Shown: positions 6,186 through 37,119 of the stretch, piece by piece
Numbering within the stretch: the first letter of the stretch is position 1
Layout of the letters: each line of letters begins with the position of its first letter
NCBI GenBank assembly: GCA_964036665.1
Contig: OZ038526.1
Location: forward strand, 14,074,001 to 14,138,000
Reading direction: 5' to 3'
Length of the DNA: 64,000 nucleotides
Source: Gordius sp. MW1
Taxonomy: Eukaryota; Nematomorpha; Gordioida; Gordea; Gordiidae
Translations under genes and position numbers: made by a program
Notes under the pieces: model-generated
What the model was told of the DNA's origin: nothing
What the model saw: the letters and a program-made list of their open reading frames with translations, nothing else
Database searches by the model: none

Positions 6186-6205
6186 CCTTTCGAAATTTTT
6201 TCAAT
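6186..6205 (+). other. Deletion scar inside a monomer
   Basis: CCTTTCGAAA is joined to TTTTTTCAATTTATTCG; about 36 bp including the ATGAAAAATAATATT start are lost. The shared AAA or AAATTTTT at both ends may have guided the loss. Confidence 0.85.
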
Positions 6206-6561: not shown

Positions 6562-6590
6562 TCGTTCAACCATTTATTAACTTAAATCAC
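6562..6590 (+). other. Deletion scar removing the GC-rich box
   Basis: CGTTCAACCAT is joined to TTATTAACTTAAATC; roughly 110 bp are missing, including ATCGCCCCCATG, the A/B signature and the A/T tract. Seen only here. Confidence 0.87.
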
Positions 6591-6852
6591 GATCGCATAA
6601 AGCTTGTTTCACAAAAACTAGAGACACGCTTAGAAAGCGATATTGAAACAATCTAAACGCAACTCTAAAATTTTAATTTCTCTCAATCTAAAACTTCCCC
6701 TCGTTCAAAAATTCTTATCGAGATTCTAACAAGGACTTAATGCTAAGAATATTTACTGACTTTTAAAGATTTTTTCAGATTCCTTTCGAAAGAATATGAA
6801 AAATAATATTTTTTTCGACCTCAAAATTTTTTCAATTTATTCGTTCAACCAT

Positions 6853-6975
6853 ATCGCCCCCATGAAAGTTTTCGATATCAGAGGTGAATTCCGTAAAAAA
6901 AAAATTTTGATCAGTCATCAAAAATTATTAACTTTAAATCACGATCGCATAGAGCTTATTTCACAAAAACAATAC
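6853..6975 (+). repeat. 123-bp short unit
   Basis: Join reads CAATAC|ATCGCCCCC. The change removes the in-frame TAG stop, which produces the longer 108-codon frame at 6796-7122. Confidence 0.9.
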
Positions 6976-7328
6976 ATCGCCCCCATGAAAGGTTTCGATA
7001 TAAGAGGTGAATTTTGTAAAAAAAAAAAATTTGATCAGTCATCAAAAATTATTAACTTAAAATCACGATCGCATAGAGCTTGTTTCACAAAAATTAGAGA
7101 CACGCTTAGAAAGCGATATTGAAATAATCTAAATGCAACTCTAAAATTTTAATTTCTCTCAGTCTAAAACTTCCCCTCGTGCAAAAATTCTCATCGAGAT
7201 TCTAACAAGGACTTAATGCTAAGAATATTTACTGACTTTTAAAGATTTTTTCAGATTCCTTTCGAAAGAATATGAAAAATAATATTTTTTTCGACCTCAA
7301 AATTTTTTCAATTTATTCGTTCAACCAT

Positions 7329-7451
7329 ATCGCCCCCATGAAAGGTTTCGATATAAGAGGTGAATTTTGTAAAAAAAAAATTTTTGATCAGTCATCAAAA
7401 ATTATTAACTTTAAATACGATCGCATAAAGCTTGTTTCACAAAAACAATAG
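7329..7451 (+). repeat. 123-bp short unit, B-type host
   Basis: Unusual because the host is B (GGTTTCGATATAAG) rather than A; it also has AAATACGATCG with one base lost. Confidence 0.88.
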
Positions 7452-8850
7452 ATCGCCCCCATGAAAGGTTTCGATATAAGAGGTGAATTTTGTAAAAAAA
7501 AAAATTTGATCAGTCATCAAAAATTATTAACTTAAAATCACGATCGCATAGAGCTTGTTTCACTAAAATTAGAGACACGCTTAGAAAGCGATATTGAAAC
7601 AATCTAAACGCAACACGAAAATCGTAATTTCCCTCAATCTAAAACTTCCCCTCGTGTAAAAATTCTTATCGAGATTCTAACAAGGACATATTTACTGACT
7701 TTTAAAGATTTTTTAAGATTCCTTTCGAAAGATTATGAAAAATAATATTTTTTTCGACCTCAAAATTTTTTCAATTCATTCGTTCAACCATATCGCCCCC
7801 ATGAAAGTTTTCGATATCAGAGGTGAATTCCGTAAAAAAAATTTTTTTGATCAGTCATCAAAAATTATTAACTTTAAATCACGATAGCATAGAGCTTGTT
7901 TCACAAAAATTAGAGACACGCTTAGAAAGCGATATTGAAACAATCTAAACGCAACTCTAAAATTTTAATTTCTCTCAATCTAAAACTTCCCCTCGTGCAA
8001 AAATTCTTATCGAGATTCTAACAAGGACTTAATGCTAAGAATATTTACTGACTTTTAAAGATTTTTTCAGATTCCTTTCGAAAGAATATGAAAAATAATA
8101 TTTTTTTCGACCTCAAAATTTTTTCAATTTATTCGTTCAACCATATCGCCCCCATGAAAGGTTTCGATATAAGAGGTGAATTTTGTAAAAAAAAAAATTT
8201 TGATCAGCCATCAAAAATTATTAACTTTAAATCACGATCGCATAGAGCTTGTTTCACAAAAATTAGAGACACGCTTAGAAAGCGATATTGAAACAATCTA
8301 AACGCAACTCGAAAATCGTAATTTCCCTCAATCTAAAACTTCCCCTCGTGCAAAAATTCTTATCGAGATTCTAACAAGGACATAATGCTAAGAATATTTA
8401 CTGACTTTTAAAGATTTTTTTAGATTCCTTTCGAAAGAATATGAAAAATAATATTTTTTTCGACCTCAAAATTTTTTCAATTTATTCGTTCAACCATATC
8501 GCCCCCATGAAAGTTTTCGATATCAGAGGTGAATTCCGTAAAAAAATTTTTTTTGATCAGTCATCAAAAATTATTAACTTTAAATCACGATAGCATAGAG
8601 CTTGTTTCACAAAAATTAGAGACACGCTTAGAAAGCGATATTGAAACAATCTAAACGCAACTCTAAAATTTTAATTTCTCCCAATCTAAAACTTCCCCTT
8701 GTGCAAAAATTCTTATCGAGATTCTAACAAGGACATATTGCTAAGAATATTTACTGACTTTTAAAGATTTTTTCAGATTCCTTTCGAAAGAATATGAAAA
8801 ATAATATTTTTTTCGACCTCAATATTTTTTCAATTTATTCGTTCAACCAT

Positions 8851-16207: not shown

Positions 16208-17941
16208 ATTCTTTCGAAAGGAATCTGAAAAAATCTTTAAAAGTCAGTAAATATTCTTAGCATTATGTCCTTGTTAGAATCTCGATAAGAATTTTTGCAC
16301 GAGGGGAAGTTTTATATTGAGAGAAATTAAAATTTTAGAGTTGCGTTTAGATTGTTTCAATATCGCTTTCTAAGCGTGTCTCTAGTTTTTGTGAAACAAG
16401 CTCTATTCGATATTGATTCAAAGTTAATAATTTTTGACGACTGATCAAATTTTTTTTTTTACAAAATTCACCTCTTATATCGAAAACTTTCATGGGGGCG
16501 ATATGGTTGAACGAATGAATTGAAAAAATTTTGAGGTCGAAAAAAATATTATTTTTCATATTCTTTCGAAAGGAATCTGAAAAAATCTTTAAAAGTCAGT
16601 AAATATTCTTAGCATTATGTCCTTGTTAGAATCTCGATAAGAATTTTATCACGAGGCGAAGTTTTAGATTGAGAGAAATTACGATTTTCGAGTTGCGTTT
16701 AGATTGTTTCAATATCGCTTTCTAAGCGTGTCTCTAGTTTTTGTGAAACAAGCGCTATGCGATCGTGATTTAAAGTTAATAATTTTTGATGACTGATCAA
16801 AATTTTTGGTTTACAAAATTCACCTCTTATATCGAAACCTTTCATGGGGGCGATATGGTTGAACGAATAAATTGAAAAAATTTTGAGGTCGAAAAAAATA
16901 TTATTTTTCATATTCTTTCGAAAGGAATCTGAAAAAATCTTTAAAAGTCAGTAAATATTCTTAGCATTATGTCTTTGTTAGAATCTCGATAAGAATTTTA
17001 TCACGAGGCGAAGTTTTAGATTGAGAGAAATTAAGATTTTCGTGTTGCGTTTAGATTGTTTCAATATCGCTTTCTAAGCGTGTCTCTAGTTTTTGTGAAA
17101 CAAGCTCTATGCGATCGTGATTTAAAGTTAATAATTTTTGATGACTGATCCAAAAAATTTTTTTTTACGGAATTCACCTCTTATATCGAAACCTTTCATG
17201 GGGGTGATATGGTTGAACGAATAAATTGAAAAAATTTTGAGGTCGAAAAAAATATTATTTTTCATATTCTTTCGAAAGGAATCTGAAAAAATATTTAAAA
17301 GTCAGTAATATTCTTAGCATTATGTCCTTGTTAGAATCTCGATAAGAATTTTTGCACGAGGCAAAGTTTTAGATTGAGAGAAATTAAAATTTTAGAGTTG
17401 CGTTTAGATTGTTTCGATATCGCTTTCTAAGCGTGTCTCTAGTTTTCGTGATTTAAAATTAATAATTTTTGATGACTGATCAAAAAAATTTTTTTTACGG
17501 AATTCACTTCTTATATCGAAAACTTTCATGGGTCCGATAAACGAAAAAATTGAAAAAATTTTGAGGTCGTAAAAATATTATTTTTCATATTCTTTAGAAA
17601 GGGGACTGAAAAAATCTTTTAAAGTGAGTAAATATTCTTAGCATTATGTCCTTGTTAGAATCTCGATAACAATTTTTACACGAGGTGAAGTTTTAGATTG
17701 AGGGAAATTACGATTTTCGTGTTGCGTTTAGATAGTTTCAATATCGGTTTATAAGCGTGTCTCTAGTTTTTGTGAAACAAGCTCTATGCGATCGTGATTT
17801 AAAGTTAATAATTTTTGATGATTGATCAAAATTTTTTTTTTTACAAAATTCACCTCTTATATCGAAACCTTTCATGGGGGCGATATGGTTGAACGAATAA
17901 ATTGAAAAAATTTTGAGGTCGAAAAAAATATTATTTTTCAT
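16208..17941 (-). repeat. Five-monomer duplication in copy 1, first unit
   Basis: Five monomers (C, B, B-like with GATCCAAAA, D, B) repeated at an offset of 1,734-1,735 bp in 17942-19676. Shared marks include TGTCTTTGTTAG (16.97 and 18.71 kb), CAGTAATATTCTTAG (17.31 and 19.04), CGAGGCAAAG (17.36 and 19.09) and the D segment. A private change, TTTTTGGTTTAC at 16.80 kb, differs from TTTTTGTTTTAC in the second unit. Confidence 0.87.
17497..17636 (-). repeat. Subfamily D segment
   Basis: Carries the GGTCCGATAAACG and TCTTTAGAAAGGGG landmarks. Just to its left is a loss of about 20-24 bp (TCTAGTTTTCGTGATTT), also seen at about 19.18 and 30.20 kb, which ties these three D copies together. Confidence 0.8.
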
Positions 17942-19676
17942 ATTCTTTCGAAAGGAATCTGAAAAAATCTTTAAAAGTCAGTAAATATTCTTAGCATTAT
18001 GTCCTTGTTAGAATCTCGATAAGAATTTTTGCACGAGGGGAAGTTTTATATTGAGAGAAATTAAAATTTTAGAGTTGCGTTTAGATTGTTTCAATATCGC
18101 TTTCTAAGCGTGTCTCTAGTTTTTGTGAAACAAGCTCTATTCGATATTGATTCAAAGTTAATAATTTTTGACGACTGATCAAATTTTTTTTTTTACAAAA
18201 TTCACCTCTTATATCGAAAACTTTCATGGGGGCGATATGGTTGAACGAATGAATTGAAAAAATTTTGAGGTCGAAAAAAATATTATTTTTCATATTCTTT
18301 CGAAAGGAATCTGAAAAAATCTTTAAAAGTCAGTAAATATTCTTAGCATTATGTCCTTGTTAGAATCTCGATAAGAATTTTATCACGAGGCGAAGTTTTA
18401 GATTGAGAGAAATTACGATTTTCGAGTTGCGTTTAGATTGTTTCAATATCGCTTTCTAAGCGTGTCTCTAGTTTTTGTGAAACAAGCTCTATGCGATCGT
18501 GATTTAAAGTTAATAATTTTTGATGACTGATCAAAATTTTTGTTTTACAAAATTCACCTCTTATATCGAAACCTTTCATGGGGGCGATATGGTTGAACGA
18601 ATAAATTGAAAAAATTTTGAGGTCGAAAAAAATATTATTTTTCATATTCTTTCGAAAGGAATCTGAAAAAATCTTTAAAAGTCAGTAAATATTCTTAGCA
18701 TTATGTCTTTGTTAGAATCTCGATAAGAATTTTATCACGAGGCGAAGTTTTAGATTGAGAGAAATTAAGATTTTCGTGTTGCGTTTAGATTGTTTCAATA
18801 TCGCTTTCTAAGCGTGTCTCTAGTTTTTGTGAAACAAGCTCTATGCGATCGTGATTTAAAGTTAATAATTTTTGATGACTGATCCAAAAAAATTTTTTTT
18901 TACGGAATTCACCTCTTATATCGAAACCTTTCATGGGGGTGATATGGTTGAACGAATAAATTGAAAAAATTTTGAGGTCGAAAAAAATAATATTTTTCAT
19001 ATTCTTTCGAAAGGAATCTGAAAAAATATTTAAAAGTCAGTAATATTCTTAGCATTATGTCCTTGTTAGAATCTCGATAAGAATTTTTGCACGAGGCAAA
19101 GTTTTAGATTGAGAGAAATTAAAATTTTAGAGTTGCGTTTAGATTGTTTCGATATCGCTTTCTAAGCGTGTCTCTAGTTTTCGTGATTTAAAATTAATAA
19201 TTTTTGATGACTGATCAAAAAATTTTTTTTTACGGAATTCACTTCTTATATCGAAAACTTTCATGGGTCCGATAAACGAAAAAATTGAAAAAATTTTGAG
19301 GTCGTAAAAATATTATTTTTCATATTCTTTAGAAAGGGGACTGAAAAAATCTTTTAAAGTGAGTAAATATTCTTAGCATTATGTCCTTGTTAGAATCTCG
19401 ATAACAATTTTTACACGAGGTGAAGTTTTAGATTGAGGGAAATTACGATTTTCGTGTTGCGTTTAGATAGTTTCAATATCGGTTTATAAGCGTGTCTCTA
19501 GTTTTTGTGAAACAAGCTCTATGCGATCGTGATTTAAAGTTAATAATTTTTGATGATTGATCAAAATTTTTTTTTTTACAAAATTCACCTCTTATATCGA
19601 AACCTTTCATGGGGGCGATATGGTTGAACGAATAAATTGAAAAAATTTTGAGGTCGAAAAAAATATTATTTTTCAT
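17942..19676 (-). repeat. Five-monomer duplication in copy 1, second unit
   Basis: Repeat of 16208-17941. This unit keeps the 11,021-bp correspondence with copy 2 (28.96-30.70 kb), while the first unit has no intact counterpart there. Confidence 0.87.
19232..19371 (-). repeat. Reference segment, divergent subfamily D
   Basis: A segment with several linked differences from all other units. On the minus strand: TTTACTCACTTTAAAAG instead of TTTACTGACTTTTAAAG, CAGTCCCCTTTCTAAAG instead of CAGATTCCTTTCGAAAG, ATTTTTACGACC with a shorter T-run, and CGTTTATCGGACCCATG where other units have CGTTCAACC then the ATCGCCCCCATG box. The monomer is about 328-331 bp. Other copies lie at about 17497-17636, 28519-28658, 30253-30392, 32835-32974 on the minus strand, and 33679-33816 and 34372-34511 on the plus strand. 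Confidence 0.85.
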
Positions 19677-20323
19677 ATTCTTTCGAAAGGAATCTGAAAA
19701 ATCTTTAAAAGTCAGTAAATATTCTTAGCATTATGTCCTTGTTAGAATCTCGATAAGAATTTTTGCACGAGGGGAAGTTTTATATTGAGAGAAATTAAAA
19801 TTTTAGAGTTGCGTTTAGATTGTTTCAATATCGCTTTCTAAGCGTGTCTCTAATTTTTGTGAAACAAGCTCTATGCGATCGTGATTTAAAGTTAATAATT
19901 TTTGATGACTGATCAAAATTTTTTTTTTTACAAAATTCACCTCTTATATCGAAACCTTTCACGGGGGCGATATGGTTGAACGAATAAATTGAAAAAATTT
20001 TGAGGTCGAAAAAAATATTATTTTTCATATTCTTTCGAAAGGAATCTGAAAAAATCTTTAAAAGTCAGTAAATATTCTTAGCATTATGTCCTTGTTAGAA
20101 TCTCGATAAGAATTTTTGCACGAGCGGAAGTTTTAGATTGAGAGAAATTAAAATTTTAGAGTTGCGTTTAGATTGTTTCAATATCGCTTTCTAAGCGTGT
20201 CTCTAATTTTTGTGAAACAAGCTCTATGCGATCGTGATTTTAAGTTAATAATTTTTGATGACTGATCAAATTTTTTTTTTTACAAAATTCACCTCTTATA
20301 TCGAAACCTTTCATGGGGGCGAT

Positions 20324-20446
20324 CTATTGTTTTTGTGAAACAAGCTCTATGCGATCGTGATTTAAAGTTAATAATTTTTGATGACTGATCAAAATTTTTT
20401 TTTTACGGAATTCACCTCTGATATCGAAAACTTTCATGGGGGCGAT
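20324..20446 (-). repeat. Short unit in large duplication, copy 1
   Basis: Join as above; neighbour has GATTTTAAGTTAAT. Counterpart of 31345. Confidence 0.9.
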
Positions 20447-23400
20447 ATGGTTGAACGAATAAATTGAAAAAATTTTGAGGTCGAAAAAAATATTATTTTT
20501 CATATTCTTTCGAAAGGAATCTGAAAAAATCTTTAAAAGTCAGTAAATATTCTTAGCATTAAGTCCTTGTTAGAATCTCGATAAGAATTTTTGCACGAGG
20601 GGAAGTTTTAGATTGAGAGAAATTAAAATTTTAGAGTTGCGTTTAAATTGTTTCAATATCGCTTTCTAAGCGTGTCTCTAATTTTTGTGAAACAAGCTCT
20701 ATGCTATCGTGATTTAAAGTTAATAATTTTTGATGACTGATCAAAAAAATTTTTTTTACGGAATTCACCTCTGATATCGAAAACTTTCATGGGGGCGATA
20801 TGGTTGAACGAATAAATTGAAAAAATTTTGAGGTCGAAAAAAATATTATTTTTCATATTCTTTTGAAAGGAATCTGAAAAAATCTTTAAAAGTCAGTAAA
20901 TATTCTTAGCATTATGTCCTTGTTAGAATCTCGATAAGAATTTTTGCACGAGGGGAAGTTTTAGATTGAGGGAAATTAAGATTTTCGAGTTGCGTTTAGA
21001 TTGTTTCAATATCGCTTTCTAAGCGTGTCACTAGTTTTTGTGAAACAAGCTTTATGCGATCGTGATTAAAAGTTAATAATTTTTGATGACTGATCAAAAT
21101 TTTTTTTTTTTACAAAATTCACCTCTTATATCGAAACCTTTCATGGGGGCGATATGGTTGAACGAATAAATTGAAAAAACTTTGATGTCGAAAAAAATAT
21201 TATTTTTCATATTCTTTCGAAAGCAATCTGAAAAAATCTTTAAAAGTTAGTAAATATTCTTAGCATTATGTCCTTGTTAGAATCTCGATAAGAATTTTTA
21301 CACAAGAGGAAGTTTTAGATTGAGAGATAAAATTTTAGAGTTGCGTTTAGATTGTTTCAATATCGCTTTCTAAGCGTGTCTCTAGTTTTTGTGAAACAAG
21401 CTCTATGCGATCGTGATTTAAAGTTAATAATTTTTGATGACTGATCAAAATTTTTTTTTTTACAAAATTCACCTCTTATATCGAAACCTTTCATGGGGGC
21501 GATATGGTTGAACGAATAAATTGAAAAAATTTTGAGGTCGAAAAAAATATTATTTTTCATATTCTTTCGAAAGGAATCTGAAAAAATCTTTAAAAGTCAG
21601 TAAATATTCTTAGCATTATGTCCTTGTTAGAATCTCGATAAGAATTTTTGCACGAGGGGAAGTTTTAGATTGAGGGAAATTACGATTTTCGAGTTGCGTT
21701 TAGATTGTTTCAATATCGCTTTCTAAGCGTGTCTCTAATTTTTGTGAAACAAGCTCTATGCGATCGTGATTTAAAGTTAATAATTTTTGATGACTAATCA
21801 AAATAAATTTTTTTACGGAATTCACCTCTGATATCGAAAACTTTCATGGGGTCGATATGGTTGAACGAATGAATTGAAAAACTTTTGAGGTCGAAAAAAA
21901 TATTATTTTTCATATTCTTTCGAAAGGAATCTGAAAAAATCTTTAAAAGTCAGTAAATATTCTTAGCATTATGTCCTTGTTAGAATCTCGATAAGAATTT
22001 TTGCACGAGGCGAAGTTTTAGATTGAGGGAAATTACGATTTTCGAGTTGCGTTTAGATTGGTTCAATATCGCTTTCTAAGCGTTGTGAAACAAGCTCTAT
22101 GCGATCGTGATTTAAAGTTAATAATTTTTGATGACTGATCAAAATTTTTTTTTTTACAAAATTCACCTCTTATATCGAAACCTTTCATGGGGGCGATATG
22201 GTTGAACGAATAAATTGAAAAAATTTTGAGGTCGAAAAGAATATTATTTTTCATATTCTTTCGAAAGGAATCTGAAAAAATCTTTAAAAGTCAGTAAATA
22301 TTCTTAGCATTATGTCCTTGTTAGAATCTCGATAAGAATTTTTGCACGAGGGGAAGTTTTAGATTGAGGGAAATTACGATTTTCGAGTTGCGTTTAGATT
22401 GTTTCAATATCGCTTTCTAAGCGTGTCTCTAATTTTTGTGAAACAAGCTCTATGCGATCGTGATTTAAAGTTAATAATTTTTGATGACTAATCAAAATAA
22501 ATTTTTTTACGGAATTCACCTCTGATATCGAAAACTTTCATGGGGGCGATATGGTTGAACAAATAAATTGAAAAAATTTTGAGGTCGAAAAAAATATTAT
22601 TTTTCACATTCTTTCGAAAGGAATCTGAAAAAATCTTTAAAAGTCAGTAAATATTCTTAGCATTATGTCCTTGTTAGAATCTCGATAAGAATTTTTGCGC
22701 GAGGGGAAGTTTCAGATTGAGGGAAATTACGATTTTCGAGTTGCGTTTAGATTGTTTCAATATCGCTTTCTAAGCGTGTCTCTAGTTTTTGTGAAACAAG
22801 CTCTATGCGATCGTGATTTAAAGTTAATAATTTTTGATGACTGATCAAAATTTTTTTTTTTACAAAATTCACCTCTGATATCGAAAACTTTCATGGGGGC
22901 GATATGGTTGAACAAATAAATTGAAAAAATTTTGAGGTCGAAAAAAATATTATTTTTCATATTCTTTCGAAAGGAATGTGAAAAAATCTTTAAAAGTCAG
23001 TAAATATTCTTAGCATTATGTCCTTGTTAGAATCTCGATAAGAATTTTTGCACGAGGGGAAGTTTTATATTGAGAGAAATTAAAATTTTAGAGTTGCGTT
23101 TAGATTGTTTCAATATCGCTTTCTAAGCGTGTCTCTAGTAGTTGTGAAACAAGCTCTATTCGATATTGATTCAAAGTTAATAATTTTTGACGACTGATCA
23201 AAATTTTTTTTTTACAAAATTCACCTCTTATATCGAAAACTTTCATGTGGGCGATATGGTTGAACGAATGAATTGAAAAAATTTTGAGGTCGAAAAAAAT
23301 ATTATTTTTCATATTCTTTCGAAAGGAATCTGAAAAAATCTTTAAAAGTCAGTAAATATTCTTAGCATTATGTCCTTGTTAGAATCTCGATAAGAATTTT

Positions 23401-24711
23401 ATCACGAGGCGAAGTTTTAGATTGAGAGAAATTACGATTTTCGAGAAGCGTTTAGATTGTTTCAATATCGCTTTCTAAGCGTGTCTCTAGTTTTTGTGAA
23501 ACAAGCTCTATGCGATCGTGATTTAAAGTTAATAATTTTTGATGACTGATCAAAAATTTTTTTTTTACGGAATTCACCTCTGATATCGAAAACTTTCACG
23601 GGGGCGATATGGTTGAACCAATAAATTGAAAAAATTTTGAGGTCGAAAAAAATATTATTTTTAATATTCTTTCGAAAGGAATCTGAAAAAATCTTTAAAA
23701 GTCAGTAAATATTCTTAGCATTATGTCCTTGTTAGAATGTCGATAAGAATTTTTGCACGAGGGGAAGTTTTAGATTGAGAGAAATCAAAATTTTAGAGTT
23801 GCGCTTAGATTGTTTCAATATCGCTTTCTAAGCGTGTCTCTAGTTTTTGTGAAACAAGCTCTATTCGATATTGATTCAAAGTTAATAATTTTTGACGACT
23901 GATCAAAATTTTTTTTTTACAAAATTCACCTATTATATCGAAAACTTTCATGGGGGCGATATGGTTGAACGAATGAATTGAAAAAATTTTGAGGTCGAAA
24001 AAAATATTATTTTTCATATTCTTTCGAAAGGAATCTGAAAAAATCTTTAAAAGTCAGTAAATATTCTTAGCATTATGTCCTTGTTAGAATCTCGATAAGA
24101 ATTTTATCACGAGGCGAAGTTTTAGATTGAGAGAAATTAAGACTTTAGTGTTGCGTTTAGATTGTTTCAATATCGCTTTCTAAGCGTGTCTCTAGTTTTT
24201 GTGAAACAAGCTCTATGCGATCGTGATTTAAAGTTAATAATTTTTGATAGCTGATCAAAAAAAATTTTTTTACGGAATTCACCTCTGATATCGAAAACTT
24301 TCATGAGTGCGATATGGTTGAACGAATAAATTGAAAATTTTTGAGGTCGAAAAAAATATTATTTTTCATATTCTTTCGAAAGGAATCTGAAAAAATCGTT
24401 AAAAGTCAGTAAATATTCTTAGCATTATGTCCTTGTTAGAATCTCGATAAGAATTTTATCACGAGGCGAAATTTTAGATTGAGAGAAATTAAGATTTTCG
24501 TGTTGCGTTTAGATTGTTTCAATATCGCTTTCTAAGCGTTGTGAAACAAGCTCTATGCGATCGTGATTTAAAGTTAATAATTTTTGATGACTGATCAAAA
24601 AAAATTTTTTTTACGGAATTCACCTCTGATATCGAAAACTTTCATGGGGGCGTTATGGTTGAACAATCAAACTGAAAAAATTTTGAAGTCGAAAAAAATA
24701 TTATTTTTCAT

Positions 24712-26472
24712 ATTCTTTCGAAAGGAATCTGAAAAAATCTTCAAAAGTCAGTAAATATTCTAGCATTATGTCCTTGTTAGAATCTCGATAAGAATTTTAT
24801 CACGAGGCGAAGTTTTAGATTGAGGGAAATTACGATTTTCGAGTTGCGTTTAGATTGTTTTAATATCGCTTTCTAAGCGTGTCTCTAGTTTTTGTGAAAC
24901 AAGCTCTATGCGATCGTGATTTAAAGTTAATAATTTTTGATGACTGATCAAAATTTTTGTTTTACAAAATTCACCTCTTATATCGAAACCTTTCATGGGG
25001 GCGATATGGTTGAACGAATAAATTGAAAAAATTTTGAGGTCGAAAAAAATATTATTTTTCATATTCTTTCGAAAGGAATCTGAAAAAATCTTTAAAAGTC
25101 AGTAAATATTCTTAGCATAATGTCCTTGTTAGAATCTCGATAAGAATTTTTGCACGAGGGGATGTTTTATATTGAGAGAAATTAAAATTTTAGAGTTGCG
25201 TTTAGATTGTTTCAATATCGCTTTCTAAGCGTGTCTCTAGTTTTTGTGAAACAAGCTCTATTCGATATTGATTCAAAGTTAATAATTTTTGACGACTGAT
25301 CAAAATTTTTTTTTTACAAAATTCACCTCTTATATCGAAAACTTTCATGGGGGCGATATGGTTGAACGAATGAATTGAAAAAATTTTGAGGTCGAAAAAA
25401 ATATTATTTTTCATATTCTTTCGAAAGGAATCTGAAAAAATCTTTAAAAGTCAGTAAATATTCTTAGCATTATGTCCTTGTTAGAATCTCGATAAGAATT
25501 TTATCACGAGGCGAAGTTTTAGATTGAGAGAAATTACGATTTTCGAGTTGCGTTTAGATTGTTTCAATATCGCTTTCTAAGCGTGTCTCTAGTTTTTGTG
25601 AAACAAGCTCTATGCGATCGTGATTTAAAGTTAATAATTTTTGATGACTGATCAAAAAAATTTTTTTACGGAATTCACCTCTGATATCGAAAACTTTCAT
25701 GGGGGCGATATGGTTGAAGGAATAAATTGAAAAAATTTTGAGGTCGAAAAAAATATTATTTTTCATATTCTTTCGAAAGGAATCTGAAAAAATCTTTAAA
25801 AGTCAGTAAATATTCTTAGCATTATGTCCTTGTTAGAATCTCGATAAGTATTTTTGCACGAGGGGAAGTTTTATATTGAGAGAAATTAAAATTTTAGAGT
25901 TGCGTTTAGATTGTTTCAATACCGCTTTCTAAGCGTGTCTCTAGTTTTTGTGAAACAAGCTCTATGCGATCGTGATTTAAAGTTAATAATTTTTGATGAC
26001 TGATCAAAAAAATTTTTTTTACGGAATTCACCTCTGATATCGAAAACTTTCATGGGGGCGATATGGTTGAAGGAATAAATTGAAAAAATTTTGAGGTCGA
26101 AAAAAATATTATTTTTCATATTCTTTCGAAAGGAATCTGAAAAAATCTTTAAAAGTCAGTAAATATTCTTAGCATTATGTCCTTGTTAGAATCTCGATAA
26201 GAATTTTATCACGAGGCGAAGTTTTAGATTGAGAGAAATTACGATTTCCGAGTTGCGTTTAGATTCTTTCAATATCGCTTTCTAAGCGTGTCTCTAATTT
26301 TTGTGAAACAAGCTCTATGCGATCGTGATTTAAAGTTAATAATTTTTGATGACTGATCAAATTTTTTTTTTTTACAAAATTCATCTCTTATATCGAAAAC
26401 TTTCATGGGGGCGATATGGTTGAACGAATGAATTGAAAAAATTTTGAGGTCGAAAAAAATATTATTTTTCAT
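24712..26472 (-). repeat. Five-monomer duplication in copy 2, first unit
   Basis: Offset 1,761-1,762 bp to 26473-28234. Shared rare marks: TCTTCAAAAGTC with TATTCTAGC (24.74 and 26.50 kb), AGCATAATGTCC (25.11 and 26.87), GATAAGTATTTTTGC (25.84 and 27.60), CAATACCGC (25.92 and 27.68), GATTTCCGAG with TAGATTCTTTC (26.25 and 28.01). One stretch near 25.95-26.12 kb is A-type here but C-type in the other unit. Confidence 0.87.
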
Positions 26473-28234
26473 ATTCTTTCGAAAGGAATCTGAAAAAATC
26501 TTCAAAAGTCAGTAAATATTCTAGCATTATGTCCTTGTTAGAATCTCGATAAGAATTTTATCACGAGGCGAAGTTTTAGATTGAGGGAAATTACGATTTT
26601 CGAGTTGCGTTTAGATTGTTTTAATATCGCTTTCTAAGCGTGTCTCTAGTTTTTGTGAAACAAGCTCTATGCGATCGTGATTTAAAGTTAATAATTTTTG
26701 ATGACTGATCAAAATTTTTGTTTTACAAAATTCACCTCTTATATCGAAACCTTTCATGGGGGCGATATGGTTGAACGAATAAATTGAAAAAATTTTGAGG
26801 TCGAAAAAAATATTATTTTTCATATTCTTTCGAAAGGAATCTGAAAAAATCTTTAAAAGTCAGTAAATATTCTTAGCATAATGTCCTTGTTAGAATCTCG
26901 ATAAGAATTTTTGCACGAGGGGATGTTTTATATTGAGAGAAATTAAAATTTTAGAGTTGCGTTTAGATTGTTTCAATATCGCTTTCTAAGCGTGTCTCTA
27001 GTTTTTGTGAAACAAGCTCTATTCGATATTGATTCAAAGTTAATAATTTTTGACGACTGATCAAAATTTTTTTTTTACAAAATTCACCTCTTATATCGAA
27101 AACTTTCATGGGGGCGATATGGTTGAACGAATGAATTGAAAAAATTTTGAGGTCGAAAAAAATATTATTTTTCATATTCTTTCGAAAGGAATCTGAAAAA
27201 ATCTTTAAAAGTCAGTAAATATTCTTAGCATTATGTCCTTGTTAGAATCTCGATAAGAATTTTATCACGAGGCGAAGTTTTAGATTGAGAGAAATTACGA
27301 TTTTCGAGTTGCGTTTAGATTGTTTCAATATCGCTTTCTAAGCGTGTCTCTAGTTTTTGTGAAACAAGCTCTATGCGATCGTGATTTAAAGTTAATAATT
27401 TTTGATGACTGATCAAAAAAATTTTTTTTACGGAATTCACCTCTGATATCGAAAACTTTCATGGGGGCGATATGGTTGAAGGAATAAATTGAAAAAATTT
27501 TGAGGTCGAAAAAAATATTATTTTTCATATTCTTTCGAAAGGAATCTGAAAAAATCTTTAAAAGTCAGTAAATATTCTTAGCATTATGTCCTTGTTAGAA
27601 TCTCGATAAGTATTTTTGCACGAGGGGAAGTTTTATATTGAGAGAAATTAAAATTTTAGAGTTGCGTTTAGATTGTTTCAATACCGCTTTCTAAGCGTGT
27701 CTCTAGTTTTTGTGAAACAAGCTCTATTCGATATTGATTCAAAGTTAATAATTTTTGACGACTGATCAAAATTTTTTTTTTTACAAAATTCACCTCTTAT
27801 ATCGAAAACTTTCATGGGGGCGATATGGTTGAACGAATGAATTGAAAAAATTTTGAGGTCGAAAAAAATATTATTTTTCATATTCTTTCGAAAGGAATCT
27901 GAAAAAATCTTTAAAAGTCAGTAAATATTCTTAGCATTATGTCCTTGTTAGAATCTCGATAAGAATTTTATCACGAGGCGAAGTTTTAGATTGAGAGAAA
28001 TTACGATTTCCGAGTTGCGTTTAGATTCTTTCAATATCGCTTTCTAAGCGTGTCTCTAATTTTTGTGAAACAAGCTCTATGCGATCGTGATTTAAAGTTA
28101 ATAATTTTTGATGACTGATCAAATTTTTTTTTTTTACAAAATTCATCTCTTATATCGAAACCTTTCATGGGGGCGATATGGTTGAACGAATAAATGGAAA
28201 AAATTTTGAGATCGAAAAAAATATTATTTTTCAT
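26473..28234 (-). repeat. Five-monomer duplication in copy 2, second unit
   Basis: Repeat of 24712-26472. At 27.72-27.88 kb it has the C-type sequence (TCTATTCGATATTG) that copy 1 also has at 15.51 kb, so this unit keeps the ancestral state and the first unit is the altered one. Confidence 0.86.
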
Positions 28235-28425
28235 ATTCTTTCTAAAGGAAGTTTTTGTGAAACAAGCTCTATGCGATCGTGATTTAAAGTTAATAATTTT
28301 TGACGACTGATCAAAATTTTTTTTTTACAAAATTCACCTCTGATATCGAAAACTTTCATGGGGGCGTTATGGTTGAACGAATAAATTGAAAAAATTTTGA
28401 GGTCGAAAAAAATATTATTTTTCAT
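28235..28425 (-). repeat. 191-bp truncated monomer, copy 2, first of two
   Basis: Same scar as 16017-16207 (TTCTTTCTAAAGGAAGTTTTT on the + strand, split as TTCTTTCTAAAGG and AAGTTTTTGTG) at the position expected from the 12,218-bp offset. It is followed at once by a second scarred unit. Confidence 0.85.
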
Positions 28426-28610
28426 ATTCTTTCTAAAGGAAGTTTTTGTGAAACAAGCTCTATGCGATCGTGATTTAAAGTTAATAATTTTTGACGACTG
28501 ATCAAAAAATTTTTTTTTACGGAATTCACTTCTTATATCGAAAACTTTCATGGGTCCGATAAACGAAAAAATTGAAAAAATTTTGAGGTCGTAAAAATAT
28601 TATTTTTCAT
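28426..28610 (-). repeat. Second truncated monomer, fused to D segment
   Basis: A second copy of the same scar at about 28433-28450, 192 bp from the first, joined to a D segment. This looks like a hybrid formed when roughly 1.2 kb was lost from copy 2. The fusion creates a 106-codon open frame at 28231-28551 on the minus strand, which is a by-product. Confidence 0.82.
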
Positions 28611-28658
28611 ATTCTTTAGAAAGGGGACTGAAAAAATCTTTTAAAGTGAGTAAATATT
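28519..28658 (-). repeat. Subfamily D segment joined to a truncated unit
   Basis: D landmarks as at 19.2 kb, but here the segment sits next to a 191-bp type truncation instead of the loss seen beside its relatives at 17.5, 19.2 and 30.2 kb. This marks the deletion end point in the second copy of the large duplication. Confidence 0.8.
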
Positions 28659-30252
28659 CTTAGCATTATGTCCTTGTTAGAATCTCGATAACAATTTTTA
28701 CACGAGGTGAAGTTTTAGATTGAGGGAAATTACGATTTTCGTGTTGCGTTTAGATAGTTTCAATATCGGTTTATAAGCGTGTCTCTAGTTTTTGTGAAAC
28801 AAGCTCTATGCGATCGTGATTTAAAGTTAATAATTTTTGATGATTGATCAAAATTTTTTTTTTTACAAAATTCACCTCTTATATCGAAACCTTTCATGGG
28901 GGCGATATGGTTGAACGAATAAATTGAAAAAATTTTGAGGTCGAAAAAAATATTATTTTTCATATTCTTTCGAAAGGAATCTGAAAAAATCTTTAAAAGT
29001 CAGTAAATATTCTTAGCATTATGTCCTTGTTAGAATCTCGATAAGAATTTTTGCACGAGGGGAAGTTTTATATTGAGAGAAATTAAAATTTTAGAGTTGC
29101 GTTTAGATTGTTTCAATATCGCTTTCTAAGCGTGTCTCTAGTTTTTGTGAAACAAGCTCTATTCGATATTGATTCAAAGTTAATAATTTTTGACGACTGA
29201 TCAAATTTTTTTTTTACAAAATTCACCTCTTATATCGAAAACTTTCATGGGGGCGATATGGTTGAACGAATGAATTGAAAAAATTTTGAGGTCGAAAAAA
29301 ATATTATTTTTCATATTCTTTCGAAAGGAATCTGAAAAAATCTTTAAAAGTCAGTAAATATTCTTAGCATTATGTCCTTGTTAGAATCTCGATAAGACTT
29401 TTATCACGAGGCGAAGTTTTAGATTGAGAGAAATTACGATTTTCGAGTTGCGTTTAGATTTTTTCAATATCGCTTTCTAAGCGTGTCTCTAGTTTTTGTG
29501 AAACAAGCTCTATGCGATCGTGATTTAAAGTTAATAATTTTTGATGACTGATCAAAATTTTTGTTTTACAAAATTCACCTCTTATATCGAAACCTTTCAT
29601 GGGGGCGATATGGTTGAACGAATAAATTGAAAAAATTTTGAGGTCGAAAAAAATATTATTTTTCATATTCTTTCGAAAGGAATCTGAAAAAATCTTTAAA
29701 AGTCAGTAAATATTCTTAGCATTATGTCTTTGTTAGAATCTCGATAAGAATTTTATCACGAGGCGAAGTTTTAGATTGAGAGAAATTAAGATTTTCGTGT
29801 TGCGTTTAGATTGTTTCAATATCGCTTTCTAAGCGTGTCTCTAGTTTTTGTGAAACAAGCTCTATGCGATCGTGATTTAAAGTTAATAATTTTTGATGAC
29901 TGATCCAAAAAAAATTTTTTTTACGGAATTCACCTCTTATATCGAAACCTTTCATGGGGGTGATATGGTTGAACGAATAAATTGAAAAAATTTTGAGGTC
30001 GAAAAAAATAATATTTTTCATATTCTTTCGAAAGGAATCTGAAAAAATATTTAAAAGTCAGTAATATTCTTAGCATTATGTCCTTGTTAGAATCTCGATA
30101 AGAATTTTTGCACGAGGCAAAGTTTTAGATTGAGAGAAATTAAAATTTTAGAGTTGCGTTTAGATTGTTTCGATATCGCTTTCTAAGCGTGTCTCTAGTT
30201 TTCGTGATTTAAAATTAATAATTTTTGATGACTGATCAAAAATTTTTTTTTT

Positions 30253-30392
30253 ACGGAATTCACTTCTTATATCGAAAACTTTCATGGGTCCGATAAACGA
30301 AAAAATTGAAAAAATTTTGAGGTCGTAAAAATATTATTTTTCATATTCTTTAGAAAGGGGACTGAAAAAATCTTTTAAAGTGAGTAAATATT
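30253..30392 (-). repeat. Subfamily D segment
   Basis: Counterpart of 19232-19371 at an offset of 11,021 bp within the large tandem duplication. Confidence 0.8.
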
Positions 30393-31344
30393 CTTAGCAT
30401 TATGTCCTTGTTAGAATCTCGATAACAATTTTTACACGAGGTGAAGTTTTAGATTGAGGGAAATTACGATTTTCGTGTTGCGTTTAGATAGTTTCAATAT
30501 CGGTTTATAAGCGTGTCTCTAGTTTTTGTGAAACAAGCTCTATGCGATCGTGATTTAAAGTTAATAATTTTTGATGATTGATCAAAATTTTTTTTTTTAC
30601 AAAATTCACCTCTTATATCGAAACCTTTCATGGGGGCGATATGGTTGAACGAATAAATTGAAAAAATTTTGAGGTCGAAAAAAATATTATTTTTCATATT
30701 CTTTCGAAAGGAATCTGAAAAATCTTTAAAAGTCAGTAAATATTCTTAGCATTATGTCCTTGTTAGAATCTCGATAAGAATTTTTGCACGAGGGGAAGTT
30801 TTATATTGAGAGAAATTAAAATTTTAGAGTTGCGTTTAGATTGTTTCAATATCGCTTTCTAAGCGTGTCTCTAATTTTTGTGAAACAAGCTCTATGCGAT
30901 CGTGATTTAAAGTTAATAATTTTTGATGACTGATCAAAATTTTTTTTTTTACAAAATTCACCTCTTATATCGAAACCTTTCACGGGGGCGATATGGTTGA
31001 ACGAATAAATTGAAAAAATTTTGAGGTCGAAAAAAATATTATTTTTCATATTCTTTCGAAAGGAATCTGAAAAAATCTTTAAAAGTCAGTAAATATTCTT
31101 AGCATTATGTCCTTGTTAGAATCTCGATAAGAATTTTTGCACGAGCGGAAGTTTTAGATTGAGAGAAATTAAAATTTTAGAGTTGCGTTTAGATTGTTTC
31201 AATATCGCTTTCTAAGCGTGTCTCTAATTTTTGTGAAACAAGCTCTATGCGATCGTGATTTTAAGTTAATAATTTTTGATGACTGATCAAATTTTTTTTT
31301 TTACAAAATTCACCTCTTATATCGAAACCTTTCATGGGGGCGAT

Positions 31345-31466
31345 CTATTGTTTTTGTGAAACAAGCTCTATGCGATCGTGATTTAAAGTTAATAATTTTT
31401 GATGACTGATCAAAATTTTTTTTTACGGAATTCACCTCTGATATCGAAAACTTTCATGGGGGCGAT
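31345..31466 (-). repeat. Short unit in copy 2 and left palindrome arm
   Basis: Counterpart of both 20324 (tandem) and 35879 (mirror). Confidence 0.9.
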
Positions 31467-32834
31467 ATGGTTGAACGAATAAATTGAAAAAATTTTGAGG
31501 TCGAAAAAAATATTATTTTTCATATTCTTTCGAAAGGAATCTGAAAAAATCTTTAAAAGTCAGTAAATATTCTTAGCATTAAGTCCTTGTTAGAATCTCG
31601 ATAAGAATTTTTGCACGAGGGGAAGTTTTAGATTGAGAGAAATTAAAATTTTAGAGTTGCGTTTAAATTGTTTCAATATCGCTTTCTAAGCGTGTCTCTA
31701 ATTTTTGTGAAACAAGCTCTATGCTATCGTGATTTAAAGTTAATAATTTTTGATGACTGATGAAAAAAATTTTTTTTACGGAATTCACCTCTGATATCGA
31801 AAACTTTCATGGGGGCGATATGGTTGAACGAATAAATTGAAAAAATTTTGAGGTCGAAAAAAATATTATTTTTCATATTCTTTTGAAAGGAATCTGAAAA
31901 AATCTTTAAAAGTCAGTAAATATTCTTAGCATTATGTCCTTGTTAGAATCTCGATAAGAATTTTTGCACGAGGGGAAGTTTTAGATTGAGGGAAATTAAG
32001 ATTTTCGAGTTGCGTTTAGATTGTTTCAATATCGCTTTCTAAGCGTGTCACTAGTTTTTGTGAAACAAGCTTTATGCGATCGTGATTAAAAGTTAATAAT
32101 TTTTGATGACTGATCAAAATTTTTTTTTTTTACAAAATTCACCTCTTATATCGAAACCTTTCATGGGGGCGATATGGTTGAACGAATAAATTGAAAAAAC
32201 TTTGATGTCGAAAAAAATATTATTTTTCATATTCTTTCGAAAGCAATCTGATAAAATCTTTAAAAGTTAGTAAATATTCTTAGCATTATGTCCTTGTTAG
32301 AATCTCGATAAGAATTTTTACACAAGAGGAAGTTTTAGATTGAGAGATAAAATTTTAGAGTTGCGTTTAGATTGTTTCAATATCGCTTTCTAAGCGTGTC
32401 TCTAGTTTTTGTGAAACAAGCTCTATGCGATCGTGATTTAAAGTTAATAATTTTTGATGACTGATCAAAATTTTTTTTTTTACAAAAATCACCTCTTATA
32501 TCGAAACCTTTCATGGGGGCGATATGGTTGAACGAATAAATTGAAAAAATTTTGAGGTCGAAAAAAATATTATTTTTCATATTCTTTCGAAAGGAATCTG
32601 AAAAAATCTTTAAAAGTCAGTAAATATTCTTAGCATTATGTCCTTGTTAGAATCTCGATAAGAATTTTTGCACGAGGGGAAGTTTTACATTGAGAGAAAT
32701 TAAAATTTTAGAGTTGCGTTTAGATTGTTTCAATATCGCTTTCTAAGCGTGTCTCTAGTTTTTGTTAAACAAGCTCTATGCGATCGTGATTCAAAATTAA
32801 TAATTTTTGATGACTGATCAAAAAATTTTTTTTT

Positions 32835-32974
32835 ACGGAATTCACCTCTTATATCGAAAACTTTCATGGGTCCGATAAACGAAAAAATTGAAAAAATTTT
32901 GAGGTCGTAAAAATATTATTTTTCATATTCTTTAGAAAGGGGACTGAAAAAATCTTTTAAAGTGAGTAAATATT
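32835..32974 (-). repeat. Subfamily D segment in left palindrome arm
   Basis: Has CACCTCTT rather than CACTTCTT at its left edge and the unusual TTGTTAAACAAGC (about 32.76 kb) beside it. Its mirror partner is 34372-34511, where GCTTGTTTAACAAAAAC appears in the same relative place. Confidence 0.82.
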
Positions 32975-33651
32975 CTTAGCATTATGTCCTTGTTAGAATG
33001 TCGATAAGAATTTTTGCACGAGGCGAAGTTTTAGATTGAGAGAAATTAAGATTTTCGTGTTGCGTTTAGATTGTTTCAATATCGCTTTCTAAGCGTGTCT
33101 CTAGTTTTTGTGAAACAAGCTCTATGCGATCGTGATTTAAAGTTAATAATTTTTGATGACTGATCAAAAATTTTTTTTTACGGAATTCACCTCTGATATC
33201 GAAAACTTTCATGGGGGCCATATGGTTGAACGAATAAATTGAAAAAATTTTGATTTCGAACAAAATATTATTTTTCATTATCTTTCGAAAGTCATCTGAA
33301 AAAATCTTTAAATGTCAGTAAATATTCTTAGCATTATGTCCTTGTTAGAATCTCGATAAGAATTTTTACACGAGGTGAAGTTTTAGATTGAGGGAAATTA
33401 CGATTTTCGTGTTGCGTTTAGATAGTTTCAATATCGCTTTATAAGCGTGTCTCTAGTTTTTGTGAAACAAGCTCTATGCGATCGTGATTTAAAGTTAATA
33501 ATTTTTGACGACTGATCAAAAAAATTTTTTTTACGGAATTCACCTCTGATATCGAAAACTTTCATGGGGGCGATATGGTTGAACGAATAAATTGAAAAAA
33601 TTTTGAGGTCGAAAAAAATATTATTTTTCATATTCTTTCGAAAGGAATCTG

Positions 33652-33703
33652 AAAAAATATTTAAAAGTCAGTAATATTTATTTACTCACTTTAAAAGATT
33701 TTT
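33652..33703. other. Strand switch 2, head-to-head (- to +)
   Basis: The minus array ends in GTCAGTAATATT (to 33678), and from 33679 the sequence reads TATTTACTCACTTTAAAAG on the plus strand. The left side read backwards, TTACTGACTTTTAAATATTT, pairs with TTACTCACTTTAAAAGATTT on the right with few mismatches and only a few bases of spacer, so a near-perfect palindrome is centred at about 33,676. The join lies in or next to the self-complementary AATATT that is normal in every monomer. Confidence 0.92.
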
Positions 33704-33816
33704 TCATTCCCCTTTCTAAAGAATATGAAAAATAATATTTTTACGACCTCAAAATTTTTTCAATTTTTTCGTTTATCGGACCCATGAAAGTTTTCAATAT
33801 CAGAGGTGAATTCCGT
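33679..33816 (+). repeat. Subfamily D segment at the strand switch
   Basis: The plus block begins exactly in this D segment, with TATTTACTCACTTTAAAAG. It has CATTCCCCTTTCTAAAG where the other D copies have CAGTCCCC, and GTTTTCAATATC rather than GTTTTCGATAT. Confidence 0.82.
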
Positions 33817-34371
33817 AAAAAAAATTTTTTTGATCAGTCATCAAAAATTATAAACTTGAAATCACGATCGCATAGAGCTTGTTTCACAAAAACTAGAGAC
33901 ACGCTTATAAAGCGATATTGAAACTATCTAAACGCAACTCTAAAATTTTATCTCTCAATCTAAAACTTCCCCTCGTGCAAAAATTCTTATCGAGATTCTA
34001 ACAAGGACATAATGCTAAGAATATTACTGACTTTTAAATATTTTTTCAGATTCCTTTCGAAAGAATATGAAAAATAATATTTTTTTCGACCTCAAAATTT
34101 TTTCAATTTATTCGTTCAACCATATCGCCCCCATGAAAGTTTTCAATATCAGAGGTGAATTCCGTAAAAAAAAATTTTTTGATCAGTCATCAAAAATTAT
34201 TAACTTTAAATCACGATCGCATAGAGCTTGTTTCACAAAAACTAGAGACACGCTTAGAAAGCGATATTGAAACAATCTAAACGCAACACGAAAATCTTAA
34301 TTTCTCTCAATCTAAAACTTCGCCTCGTGCAAAAACTCTTATCGACATTCTAACAAGGACATAATGCTAAG

Positions 34372-34511
34372 AATATTTACTCACTTTAAAAGATTTTTTC
34401 AGTCCCCTTTCTAAAGAATATGAAAAATAATATTTTTACGACCTCAAAATTTTTTCAATTTTTTCGTTTATCGGACCCATGAAAGTTTTCGATATAAGAG
34501 GTGAATTCCGT
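34372..34511 (+). repeat. Subfamily D segment in right palindrome arm
   Basis: Mirror partner of 32835-32974. It shares the D landmarks, the flanking GTTTAACAAAAAC and an adjacent TCAATGTAAAAC (mirror: GTTTTACATTG at about 32.68 kb). Confidence 0.82.
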
Positions 34512-35878
34512 AAAAAAAAATTTTTTGATCAGTCATCAAAAATTATTAATTTTGAATCACGATCGCATAGAGCTTGTTTAACAAAAACTAGAGACACGCT
34601 TAGAAAACGATATTGAAACAATCTAAACGCAACTCTAAAATTTTAATTTCTCTCAATGTAAAACTTCCCCTCGTGCAAAAATTCTTATCGAGATTCTAAC
34701 AAGGACATAATGCTAAGAATATTTACTGACTTTTAAAGATTTTTTCAGATTCCTTTCGAAAGAATATGAAAAATAATATTTTTTTCGACCTCAAAATTTT
34801 TTCAATTTATTCGTTCAACCATATCGCCCCCATGAAAGGTTTCGAAATAAGAGGTGAATTTTGTAAAAAAAAAAAATTTGATCAGTCATCAAAAATTATT
34901 AACTTTAAATCACGATCGCATAGAGCTTGTTTCACAATAACTAGAGACACGCTTAGAAAGCGATATTGAAACAATCTAAACGCAACTCTAAAATTTTATC
35001 TCTCAATCTAAAACTTCCCCTTGTGTAAAAATTCTTATCGAGATTCTAACAAGGACATAATGCTAAGAATATTTACTGACTTTTAAAGATTTTTTCAGAT
35101 TGCTTTCGAAAGAATATGAAAAATAATATTTTTTTCGACATCAAAGTTTTTTCAATTTATTCGTTCAACCATATCGCCCCCATGAAAGGTTTCGATATAA
35201 GAGGTGAATTTTGTAAAAAAAAAAATTTTGATCAGTCATCAAAAATTATTAACTTTTAATCACGATCGCATAAAGCTTGTTTCACAAAAACTAGTGACAC
35301 GCTTAGAAAGCGATATTGAAACAATCTAAACGCAACTCGAAAATCTTAATTTCCCTCAATCTAAAACTTCCCCTCGTGCAAAAATTCTTATCGAGATTCT
35401 AACAAGGACATAATGCTAAGAATATTTACTGACTTTTAAAGATTTTTTCAGATTCCTTTCAAAAGAATATGAAAAATAATATTTTTTTCGACCTCAAAAT
35501 TTTTTCAATTTATTCGTTCAACCATATCGCCCCCATGAAAGTTTTCGATATCAGAGGTGAATTCCGTAAAAAAAAATTTTTTCATCAGTCATCAAAAATT
35601 ATTAACTTTAAATCACGATAGCATAGAGCTTGTTTCACAAAAATTAGAGACACGTTTAGAAAGCGATATTGAAACAATTTAAACGCAACTCTAAAATTTT
35701 AATTTCTCTCAATCTAAAACTTCCCCTCGTGCAAAAATTCTTATCGAGATTCTAACAAGGACTTAATGCTAAGAATATTTACTGACTTTTAAAGATTTTT
35801 TCAGATTCCTTTCGAAAGAATATGAAAAATAATATTTTTTTCGACCTCAAAATTTTTTCAATTTATTCGTTCAACCAT

Positions 35879-36000
35879 ATCGCCCCCATGAAAGTTTTCG
35901 ATATCAGAGGTGAATTCCGTAAAAAAAAATTTTGATCAGTCATCAAAAATTATTAACTTTAAATCACGATCGCATAGAGCTTGTTTCACAAAAACAATAG
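35879..36000 (+). repeat. Short unit in right palindrome arm
   Basis: Mirror of 31345; the following B part has GATATGAGAG, a private change. Confidence 0.9.
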
Positions 36001-36705
36001 ATCGCCCCCATGAAAGGTTTCGATATGAGAGGTGAATTTTGTAAAAAAAAAAATTTGATCAGTCATCAAAAATTATTAACTTAAAATCACGATCGCATAG
36101 AGCTTGTTTCACAAAAATTAGAGACACGCTTAGAAAGCGATATTGAAACAATCTAAACGCAACTCTAAAATTTTAATTTCTCTCAATCTAAAACTTCCGC
36201 TCGTGCAAAAATTCTTATCGAGATTCTAACAAGGACATAATGCTAAGAATATTTACTGACTTTTAAAGATTTTTTCAGATTCCTTTCGAAAGAATATGAA
36301 AAATAATATTTTTTTCGACCTCAAAATTTTTTCAATTTATTCGTTCAACCATATCGCCCCCGTGAAAGGTTTCGATATAAGAGGTGAATTTTGTAAAAAA
36401 AAAAAATTTGATCAGTCATCAAAAATTATTAACTTTAAATCACGATCGCATAAAGCTTGTTTCACAAAAATTAGAGACACGCTTAGAAAGCGATATTGAA
36501 ACAATCTAAACGCAACTCTAAAATTTTAATTTCTCTCAATATAAAACTTCCCCTCGTGCAAAAATTCTTATCGAGATTCTAACAAGGACATAATGCTAAG
36601 AATATTACTAACTTTTAAAGATTTTTTTAGCCTCCTTTCGAAAGAATATGAAAAATAATATTTTTTTTCGACCTCAAAATTTTTTCAATTTATTCGTTCA
36701 ACCAT

Positions 36706-36825
36706 ATCGCCCCCATGAAAGTTTTCGATATCAGAGGTGAATTCCGTAAAAAAAAATTTTTCAGTCATCAAAAATTATTAACTTTAAATCACGATCGCAT
36801 AGAGCTTGTTTTACAAAAACAATAG
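36706..36825 (+). repeat. Short unit, 120 bp
   Basis: Lacks GATCAG in the AAATTTTTCAGTCATC region and has GTTTTACAAAAAC before the join. Confidence 0.88.
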
Positions 36826-37119
36826 ATCGCCCCCATGAAAGGTTTCGATATAAGAGGTGAATTTTGTAAAAAAAAAGTTTTGATCATCAAAAATTATAAA
36901 CTTTAAATCACGATCGCATAGAGCTTGTTTCACAAAAATTAGAGACACGCTTAGAAAGCGATATTGAAACAATCTAAACGCAACTCGAAAATCGTAATTT
37001 CCCTCAATCTAAAACTTCCCCTCGTGCAAAAATTCTTATCGAGATTCTAACAAGGACATAATGCTAAGAATATTTACTGACTTTTAAAGATTTTTTCAGA
37101 TTCCTTTCGAAAGAATATG

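Follow-up and report, generated by a model that had tools for sequence, protein, structure and literature searches.

A mirror-image inverted duplication at an orientation switch in an array of 353-bp satellite

Introduction

The (peri)centromeric satellites of Tribolium change orientation and have conserved inversion sites at which diverged units lie, as described in the part of the source available here (PMC13081366). The same part states that these macro-dyad symmetries are documented in the genus Tribolium only (PMC13081366). In the accessible part of a second paper the term macro-dyad appears in the reference list alone (PMC13427858). A literature search of limited coverage and few terms found no macro-dyad satellites in another genus. 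Here we describe an orientation switch, SW2, in the satellite array of a window of 64,000 bp (C8:14,074,001-14,138,000; the genome comprises 211.8 Mb in 12 contigs). At SW2 about 2.6 kb of satellite forms a mirror-image inverted duplication, which is real and well preserved.

As far as the Tribolium macro-dyads are described in the available part of the source, the array resembles them in its changes of direction, in its kilobase inverted subarrays and in the diverged units at the inversion site, and it may likewise combine a major and a minor satellite in one domain (PMC13081366). The mirror copy at SW2 is a further example of an already known kind of rearrangement, in which the order of events is readable from the sequence. 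Fold-back and template-switch inverted duplications are replication-based rearrangements. Long palindromes, for example those of sex chromosomes, are kept alike by gene conversion from arm to arm. The wider question behind SW2 is how satellite arrays change direction and whether that matters for centromeres. SW2 bears on the first part of it as a switch whose steps can be ordered by sequence divergence.

Results and Discussion

Mirror arms at SW2

The window is filled by an AT-rich satellite with a unit of 353 bp and by shorter partial units of 123 bp. GC skew and word orientation place the satellite on the - strand to ~8.97 kb, on the + strand to 33.68 kb and on the - strand from there to the end. 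Nearest-relative statistics are based on an extended stretch of 264 kb (the window and 100 kb on each side), in which positions left of the window start carry negative coordinates. This stretch is mainly 353-bp satellite with some non-satellite inserts, and it has three orientation switches (SW0, SW1 and SW2). The 264 kb were cut into 603 monomers, 573 of which have enough like-sized partners for these statistics.

An earlier note on this DNA had claimed a true inverted duplication around the switch, with arms of ~2.9 kb. Over 2,468 alignment columns the left arm (30,739-33,204) and the reverse complement of the right arm (34,141-36,607) are separated by 15 substitutions and 3 gap events, or 0.73%. 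In 3,000 random pairs of + and - monomers (345-358 bp) from the 264 kb the difference is 4.74 ± 1.40%; a fraction of 0.0003 of these pairs differ by no more than 0.6%, and not one of the 3,000 by 0.3% or less. This comparison of the arm alignment with random monomer pairs was the check that the earlier note had proposed. It places the identity of the arms well above the control, and the inverted duplication is upheld. Two unrelated runs of monomers that happen to face each other are unlikely, because arm identity is so far above that of random pairs, and on this control we rule them out. The alignment supports a common ancestor of the arms that is far more recent than that of ordinary opposite-strand monomer pairs.

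The pairing of single monomers agrees with this ancestry. Five of the six outer left-arm monomers have their mirror partner as nearest relative among the - monomers of like size (n 93-237), and for the sixth the partner ranks third. In the other direction, four of the six right-arm monomers have the left partner as the closest and two have it as the second closest. The claim of at least seven rare variants in mirror order also held: seven runs of 25-mers, private within the 264 kb, are so ordered. Four belong to the two arms alone and three to the arms plus a direct copy of the left arm at 19.5-22.0 kb. A variant common to 33,420 and 33,902 was dropped as an arm-specific marker, as it has 55 places in the 264 kb at up to one mismatch.

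The arm pair is the top-scoring inverted match of the window (98.80% over 2,676 columns). Three longer inverted matches in the 264 kb outscore it, but at 95.8-96.1% identity. Among the 40 best matches listed, only the arm pair and the match of the direct copy to the right arm (98.6%) exceed 97.3%. The symmetry had been said to stop at about 30.72 and 36.62 kb. The symmetry itself stands and the limits are corrected to 30,739 and 36,607, the last difference before the match; the next difference inward is at 30,892. Such arms could in principle form a long hairpin, and the mirror structure need have no function.

The core between the arms

The earlier note had placed the centre of symmetry at about 33,673 and described an inner 700 bp that differ, with an extra D-type unit on the right, as the mark of an event that was complex or was edited later. 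The junction lies at 33,678/33,679. The core is indeed unsymmetrical; it extends over 33,205-34,140 and contains an extra monomer both left and right of the junction. In zero register, 33,205-33,678 and 33,679-34,140 differ by 37 events (7.9%), which is above the 95% point of the random pairs (7.08%). Omitting 33,205-33,557 gives an arm alignment of 2,589 columns with 18 events (0.70%), in which the 121-bp tip of the left arm (33,558-33,678) is identical to 34,020-34,140. This match at a shift of one monomer, identical tip included, shows that the left arm is reproduced on the right as far as its final base. Aligned in this way the core is simple, and the one-monomer-shift alignment replaces the idea of a core of unrelated edited sequence.

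The extra monomer of the left arm is absent from the right arm, where monomer 34,023-34,374 is a fusion whose 5' part corresponds to left monomer A and whose 3' part corresponds to left monomer B. The innermost (seventh) pair, 32,972-33,323 and 34,023-34,374, ranks only 7th and 29th because its right member is this fusion. A 51-bp word of the left extra monomer has a single occurrence in the genome at up to three mismatches. The extra D-type unit on the right, Y', is present at 33,679-34,019 with D signatures at 33,765 and 33,679, and its nearest stretch in the 264 kb is ~96% identical.

The left tip is not exclusive to the arms. Its rare variant has six exact sites within the 264 kb, and 33,540-33,678 is identical (139/139) to -58,853 to -58,715. 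In the + array at -58.85 to -58.63 kb the sequence that comes after the identical tip matches the beginning of Y' at 98.5%, which makes B-then-Y a plausible older order on the + strand.

There are 13 D-type units in the 264 kb (up to two substitutions). Ten lie in the + blocks left of SW0 and SW2, within ~16 kb, although one of these ten, at 17,530, lies nearer SW1; the other three are on the - side, at most 0.8 kb from SW0 or SW2. D-type monomers are restricted to -59,173 to -48,465 and 17,530 to 34,460.

Table 1. Features of the SW2 locus, orientation switches and arrays of 345-bp satellite. Positions are those of the window unless C8 or Mb is given.
Feature	Position	Strand	Basis or remark
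Outer part of left arm: five monomers, including a 474-bp composite, then D-type monomer 32,626-32,971, 5' part of A	30739..33204	+	arm alignment, monomer pairing
Left-arm extra monomer (3' A + 5' B), not in right arm	33205..33557	+	A5'-B3' fusion on right
Left-arm tip (3' part of B), rare variant	33558..33678	+	identity to 34,020-34,140
SW2, orientation switch (+ to -, scan position 33,668); junction in self-complementary AATATT phase of monomer	33678..33679	.	sequence
Extra D-type unit Y', right-side tip, spacer between arms	33679..34019	-	D signatures
Right arm, matching an inverted left-arm copy minus one monomer	34020..36607	-	18 events / 2,589 columns
Diverged unit just outside right arm	36608..37071	-	monomer 36,604-37,071
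L', direct copy of left arm, in ~11-kb tandem duplication	19718..21670	+	4 events / 1,863 columns
SW0, orientation switch in 264 kb	-49,162		
SW1, orientation switch (- to +)	8,966		
SW3, fourth switch	~C8:14,301,080		inside 3-kb sample
C8, 345-bp arrays	12.5-13.95 Mb; 14.5-15.5 Mb; 15.6-16.6 Mb	-; +; -	12, 9 and 6 samples; one diverged - sample at 14.45 Mb
C2, 345-bp arrays	9.0 Mb; 9.4-10.0 Mb; 10.8-12.2 Mb	-; +; -	4 samples in the second, 5 in the third; 353-bp block between last two
C6, 345-bp arrays	13.0-14.55 Mb; 15.1-16.3 Mb	-; +	6 and 4 samples

Origin of the right arm

In the reading we favour, to which we give a probability of roughly 0.5, the left arm was copied in inverted form to make the right arm, probably through a template switch during replication at a boundary of orientation that was probably there before. 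The junction reads GTCAGTAATATT up to 33,678 and TATTTACTCAC from 33,679, and lies where the AATATT of the monomer is its own reverse complement. The outer limit of the arms is at or near the same phase. A growing strand that reached 33,678 during replication or break repair could have used the self-complementary AATATT to pair with the opposite strand at a point one monomer ahead. It would then have copied its way back along Y, B, A, D and another five monomers to ~30,739, and would have rejoined the - array in register. The right arm would later have lost one monomer by recombination between A and B. Like fold-back and template-switch duplications, the locus has a short spacer (341 bp), arms in phase and possible microhomology at the junction. 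Unlike fold-back duplications, the copied segment ends after ~2.6 kb and rejoins a matching array, with no terminal loss or dicentric implied.

The right side is the more likely recipient, since neither its inner unit Y' nor its outer flank has a close match elsewhere in the 264 kb, and since the left arm continues outward into sequence common to its direct copy. In the outer flank, monomer 36,604-37,071 (468 bp) stands 14 differences away from its closest relative of similar size in the 264 kb.

Several points speak against this origin. Derived-looking changes occur on both arms (six on the right, four on the left and three unclear, at 13 sites in five monomer pairs) and so give no direction of copying. 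Rare variants near the left tip are also present elsewhere in the 264 kb. The outer limit can be placed only between 30,739 and 30,891. Because Y' is absent from the left arm, the model needs either a switch one monomer ahead or a subsequent loss. The junction has an extra TATT between TAATATT and TACTCAC, which pure microhomology does not explain. The arm differences are clustered, with 7 of 18 within 250 bp at 32,252-32,500 (P ~0.05), and right monomer 34,721-35,070 has four differences to three other monomers and five to its mirror partner; these last two observations are hints of later conversion.

Conversion may also account for the arms as a whole. There would have been an older switch at 33,678/33,679, with Y' as its first - monomer, and ~2.6 kb of the right side would have been overwritten from the left. 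We consider this a serious rival, if a tentative one. The 7.9% difference of the core in zero register and the diverged monomers near the switches make the switch look older than the arms, the right arm is flanked on both sides by poorly matched sequence, and the clustering just described would fit as well. As in palindromes maintained by conversion, the SW2 arms are much more alike than the core. The shared segment, however, starts exactly at the last base of the left arm at a shift of one monomer, which conversion does not require. Regular arm-to-arm conversion is also not seen at SW0 and SW1, which have no recent mirror arms: the eight best inverted matches listed with a midpoint within 1.5 kb reach at most 97.1% and 96.9%, respectively, and lie kilobases away. 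The locus further differs from sex-chromosome palindromes in that its arms are a few kb of satellite.

Relative age of the mirror copy

The direct copy L' belongs to a tandem duplication of ~11 kb (~10.93-21.67 and 21.39-32.69 kb), the pieces of which are 99.4-99.6% identical. Over 19,718-21,580, L' differs from the left arm by 4 events in 1,863 columns, and similarity falls from ~21,668. A three-way comparison over 1.86 kb gave 4 events between left arm and direct copy, 14 between left and right arms and 14 between direct copy and right arm. The arms have diverged more than the left arm has from its direct copy, which makes the mirror copy the older event and the ~11-kb tandem duplication the younger. 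The shared ancestor claimed for the arms is thus recent by comparison with random pairs, and recent only in that relative sense. The tandem duplication (10,932-32,690) fills most of the + block.

Direct copies of the left arm such as that at 19.7-21.7 kb, together with the several orientation blocks, would also allow a plain inversion of an array stretch that carried such a copy and brought it into mirror position. We think this improbable. Both breakpoints would have to fall at equivalent bases of two copies, and flipping the + block 8,966-33,678 back restores the monomer phase at neither end, as judged from the junctions and on the assumption of no loss at the breaks.

The mirror copy is probably younger than the diverged monomers at the switch. 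From the monomers near the switches with their distant relatives only, from the diverged unit outside the right arm and from the single-occurrence word of the left extra monomer, we infer an older switch at this place, with the left arm copied into the - side of it.

Homogenisation near the switches

Monomers near SW0, SW1 and SW2 are poorly homogenised. From -50 to +34 kb, divergence from the nearest relative rises towards the switches. The median is 1.84% for the six monomers within 600 bp of a switch and 0.00% for the 424 beyond 10 kb. In a rank test the 15 monomers within 1.2 kb of switches differ from the other 558 with P = 1.7e-8, a value that treats non-independent monomers as independent. 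Permutation of positions gave 0.00085 with all three switches and 0.0028 when only SW0 and SW1 entered; random positions were used, sets with too few monomers were discarded, and this test of the edges rests on only three switches. The SW2 locus suggests a testable rule, that homogenisation fails near switches.

Other switches and chromosome-scale layout

The 38-bp junction word of SW2 occurs once in the genome at up to three mismatches, and this single occurrence rules out a recurrent SW2 junction. The words of SW0 and SW3 also have one occurrence each at this threshold. The SW1 word has two, at C8:14,082,952 and C8:14,265,886 (~183 kb apart). Between the SW1 copies the - sides have 2 differences in 610 bp and the + sides 28 in 590 bp, so that a switch junction can be inherited while one flank is replaced. 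In the 3-kb sample, the inverted match centred on SW3 is 95.8% identical.

Satellite arrays mis-assemble easily and the SW2 locus is known here from the assembly alone, so an artefact or fold-back chimera in the repetitive region was also considered; we think it likewise improbable. A fold-back would give near-identical arms, whereas 18 events are observed, with apparently derived changes on both sides, and there is one extra unit per side and a different outer flank at each end. The SW1 junction, present twice in the assembly with one side common at 2 differences in 610 bp, indicates that at least SW1 behaves like inherited DNA.

The 353-bp block is surrounded by a related satellite of 345 bp (~66% identical). 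On all three chromosomes sampled (C8, C2 and C6) the 345-bp arrays are oppositely oriented around the 353-bp block (Table 1), and at the sample spacing there is one such block between 345-bp arrays per chromosome. This layout is based on samples of 0.5-3 kb (loci L021-L102). C2 and C6 were chosen as the first among the 353-bp matches listed (6,040 matches of a 42-bp word at up to two mismatches). Flips of the 345-bp satellite with no 353-bp block seen between the samples occur at 15.5/15.6 Mb on C8 and 9.0/9.4 Mb on C2, and these disfavour a strict layout rule.

Judged by the features of the Tribolium type, oppositely oriented subarrays are present (three switches within the 264 kb, with SW3 in the 3-kb sample as the fourth), and diverged units lie at the inversion sites, as shown by the rise in divergence towards the switches. 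An inversion site conserved among many arrays was not found, as junction words have one or two copies in the genome at up to three mismatches. In Tribolium, according to the available part of the source, inversion sites are conserved in thousands of copies (PMC13081366), whereas here the SW0, SW2 and SW3 junctions occur once each and that of SW1 twice. Also unlike Tribolium, the major and minor satellites are related (~66%), and at SW2 one arm is a recent copy of the other.

The opposed 345-bp arrays suggest a large-scale mirror layout beyond Tribolium, provided that the species lies outside that genus. The start of C8 carries a telomere of TTAGGG type. The telomere of Tribolium is TCAGG, and a species outside the genus fits this difference. 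The protein families PF01341 and PF02949 gave no match in the genome, nor in any of 14 control genomes, so this absence carries no weight. No fitting satellite with units of 345 and 353 bp came up in the literature searched. Switches as boundaries of homogenisation, together with opposed major arrays, are the more interesting lead. It is possible, though we would call it doubtful, that the switches are barriers to homogenisation which preserve old monomers and with them a legible history, and that the SW2 copy is one local step in a macro-dyad domain outside Tribolium, with 345-bp arrays opposed around a switch-rich 353-bp block and with inversion sites that are unique and not conserved.

Other features of the array

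Across the 264 kb there are 141 occurrences of the border of the 123-bp partial unit (25 on the + and 116 on the - strand), for example at 31,345 and 36,000. It looks as if there had been one founding event followed by spread.

Non-satellite inserts within the array lie at C8:14,051,000-14,053,000 (L008) and C8:14,183,000-14,186,500 (L015). In L015 no open reading frame of at least 120 amino acids is present at 4,800-8,800. Open reading frames of at least 80 amino acids in non-satellite inserts number three in L008 and one in L001.

At C8:13,974,001-13,997,756 (L001-L003) there is a tandem duplication of 11.88 kb with 99.6% identity. Stretches richer in G+C are found near C8:13,983-13,985 kb and 13,995-13,997 kb.

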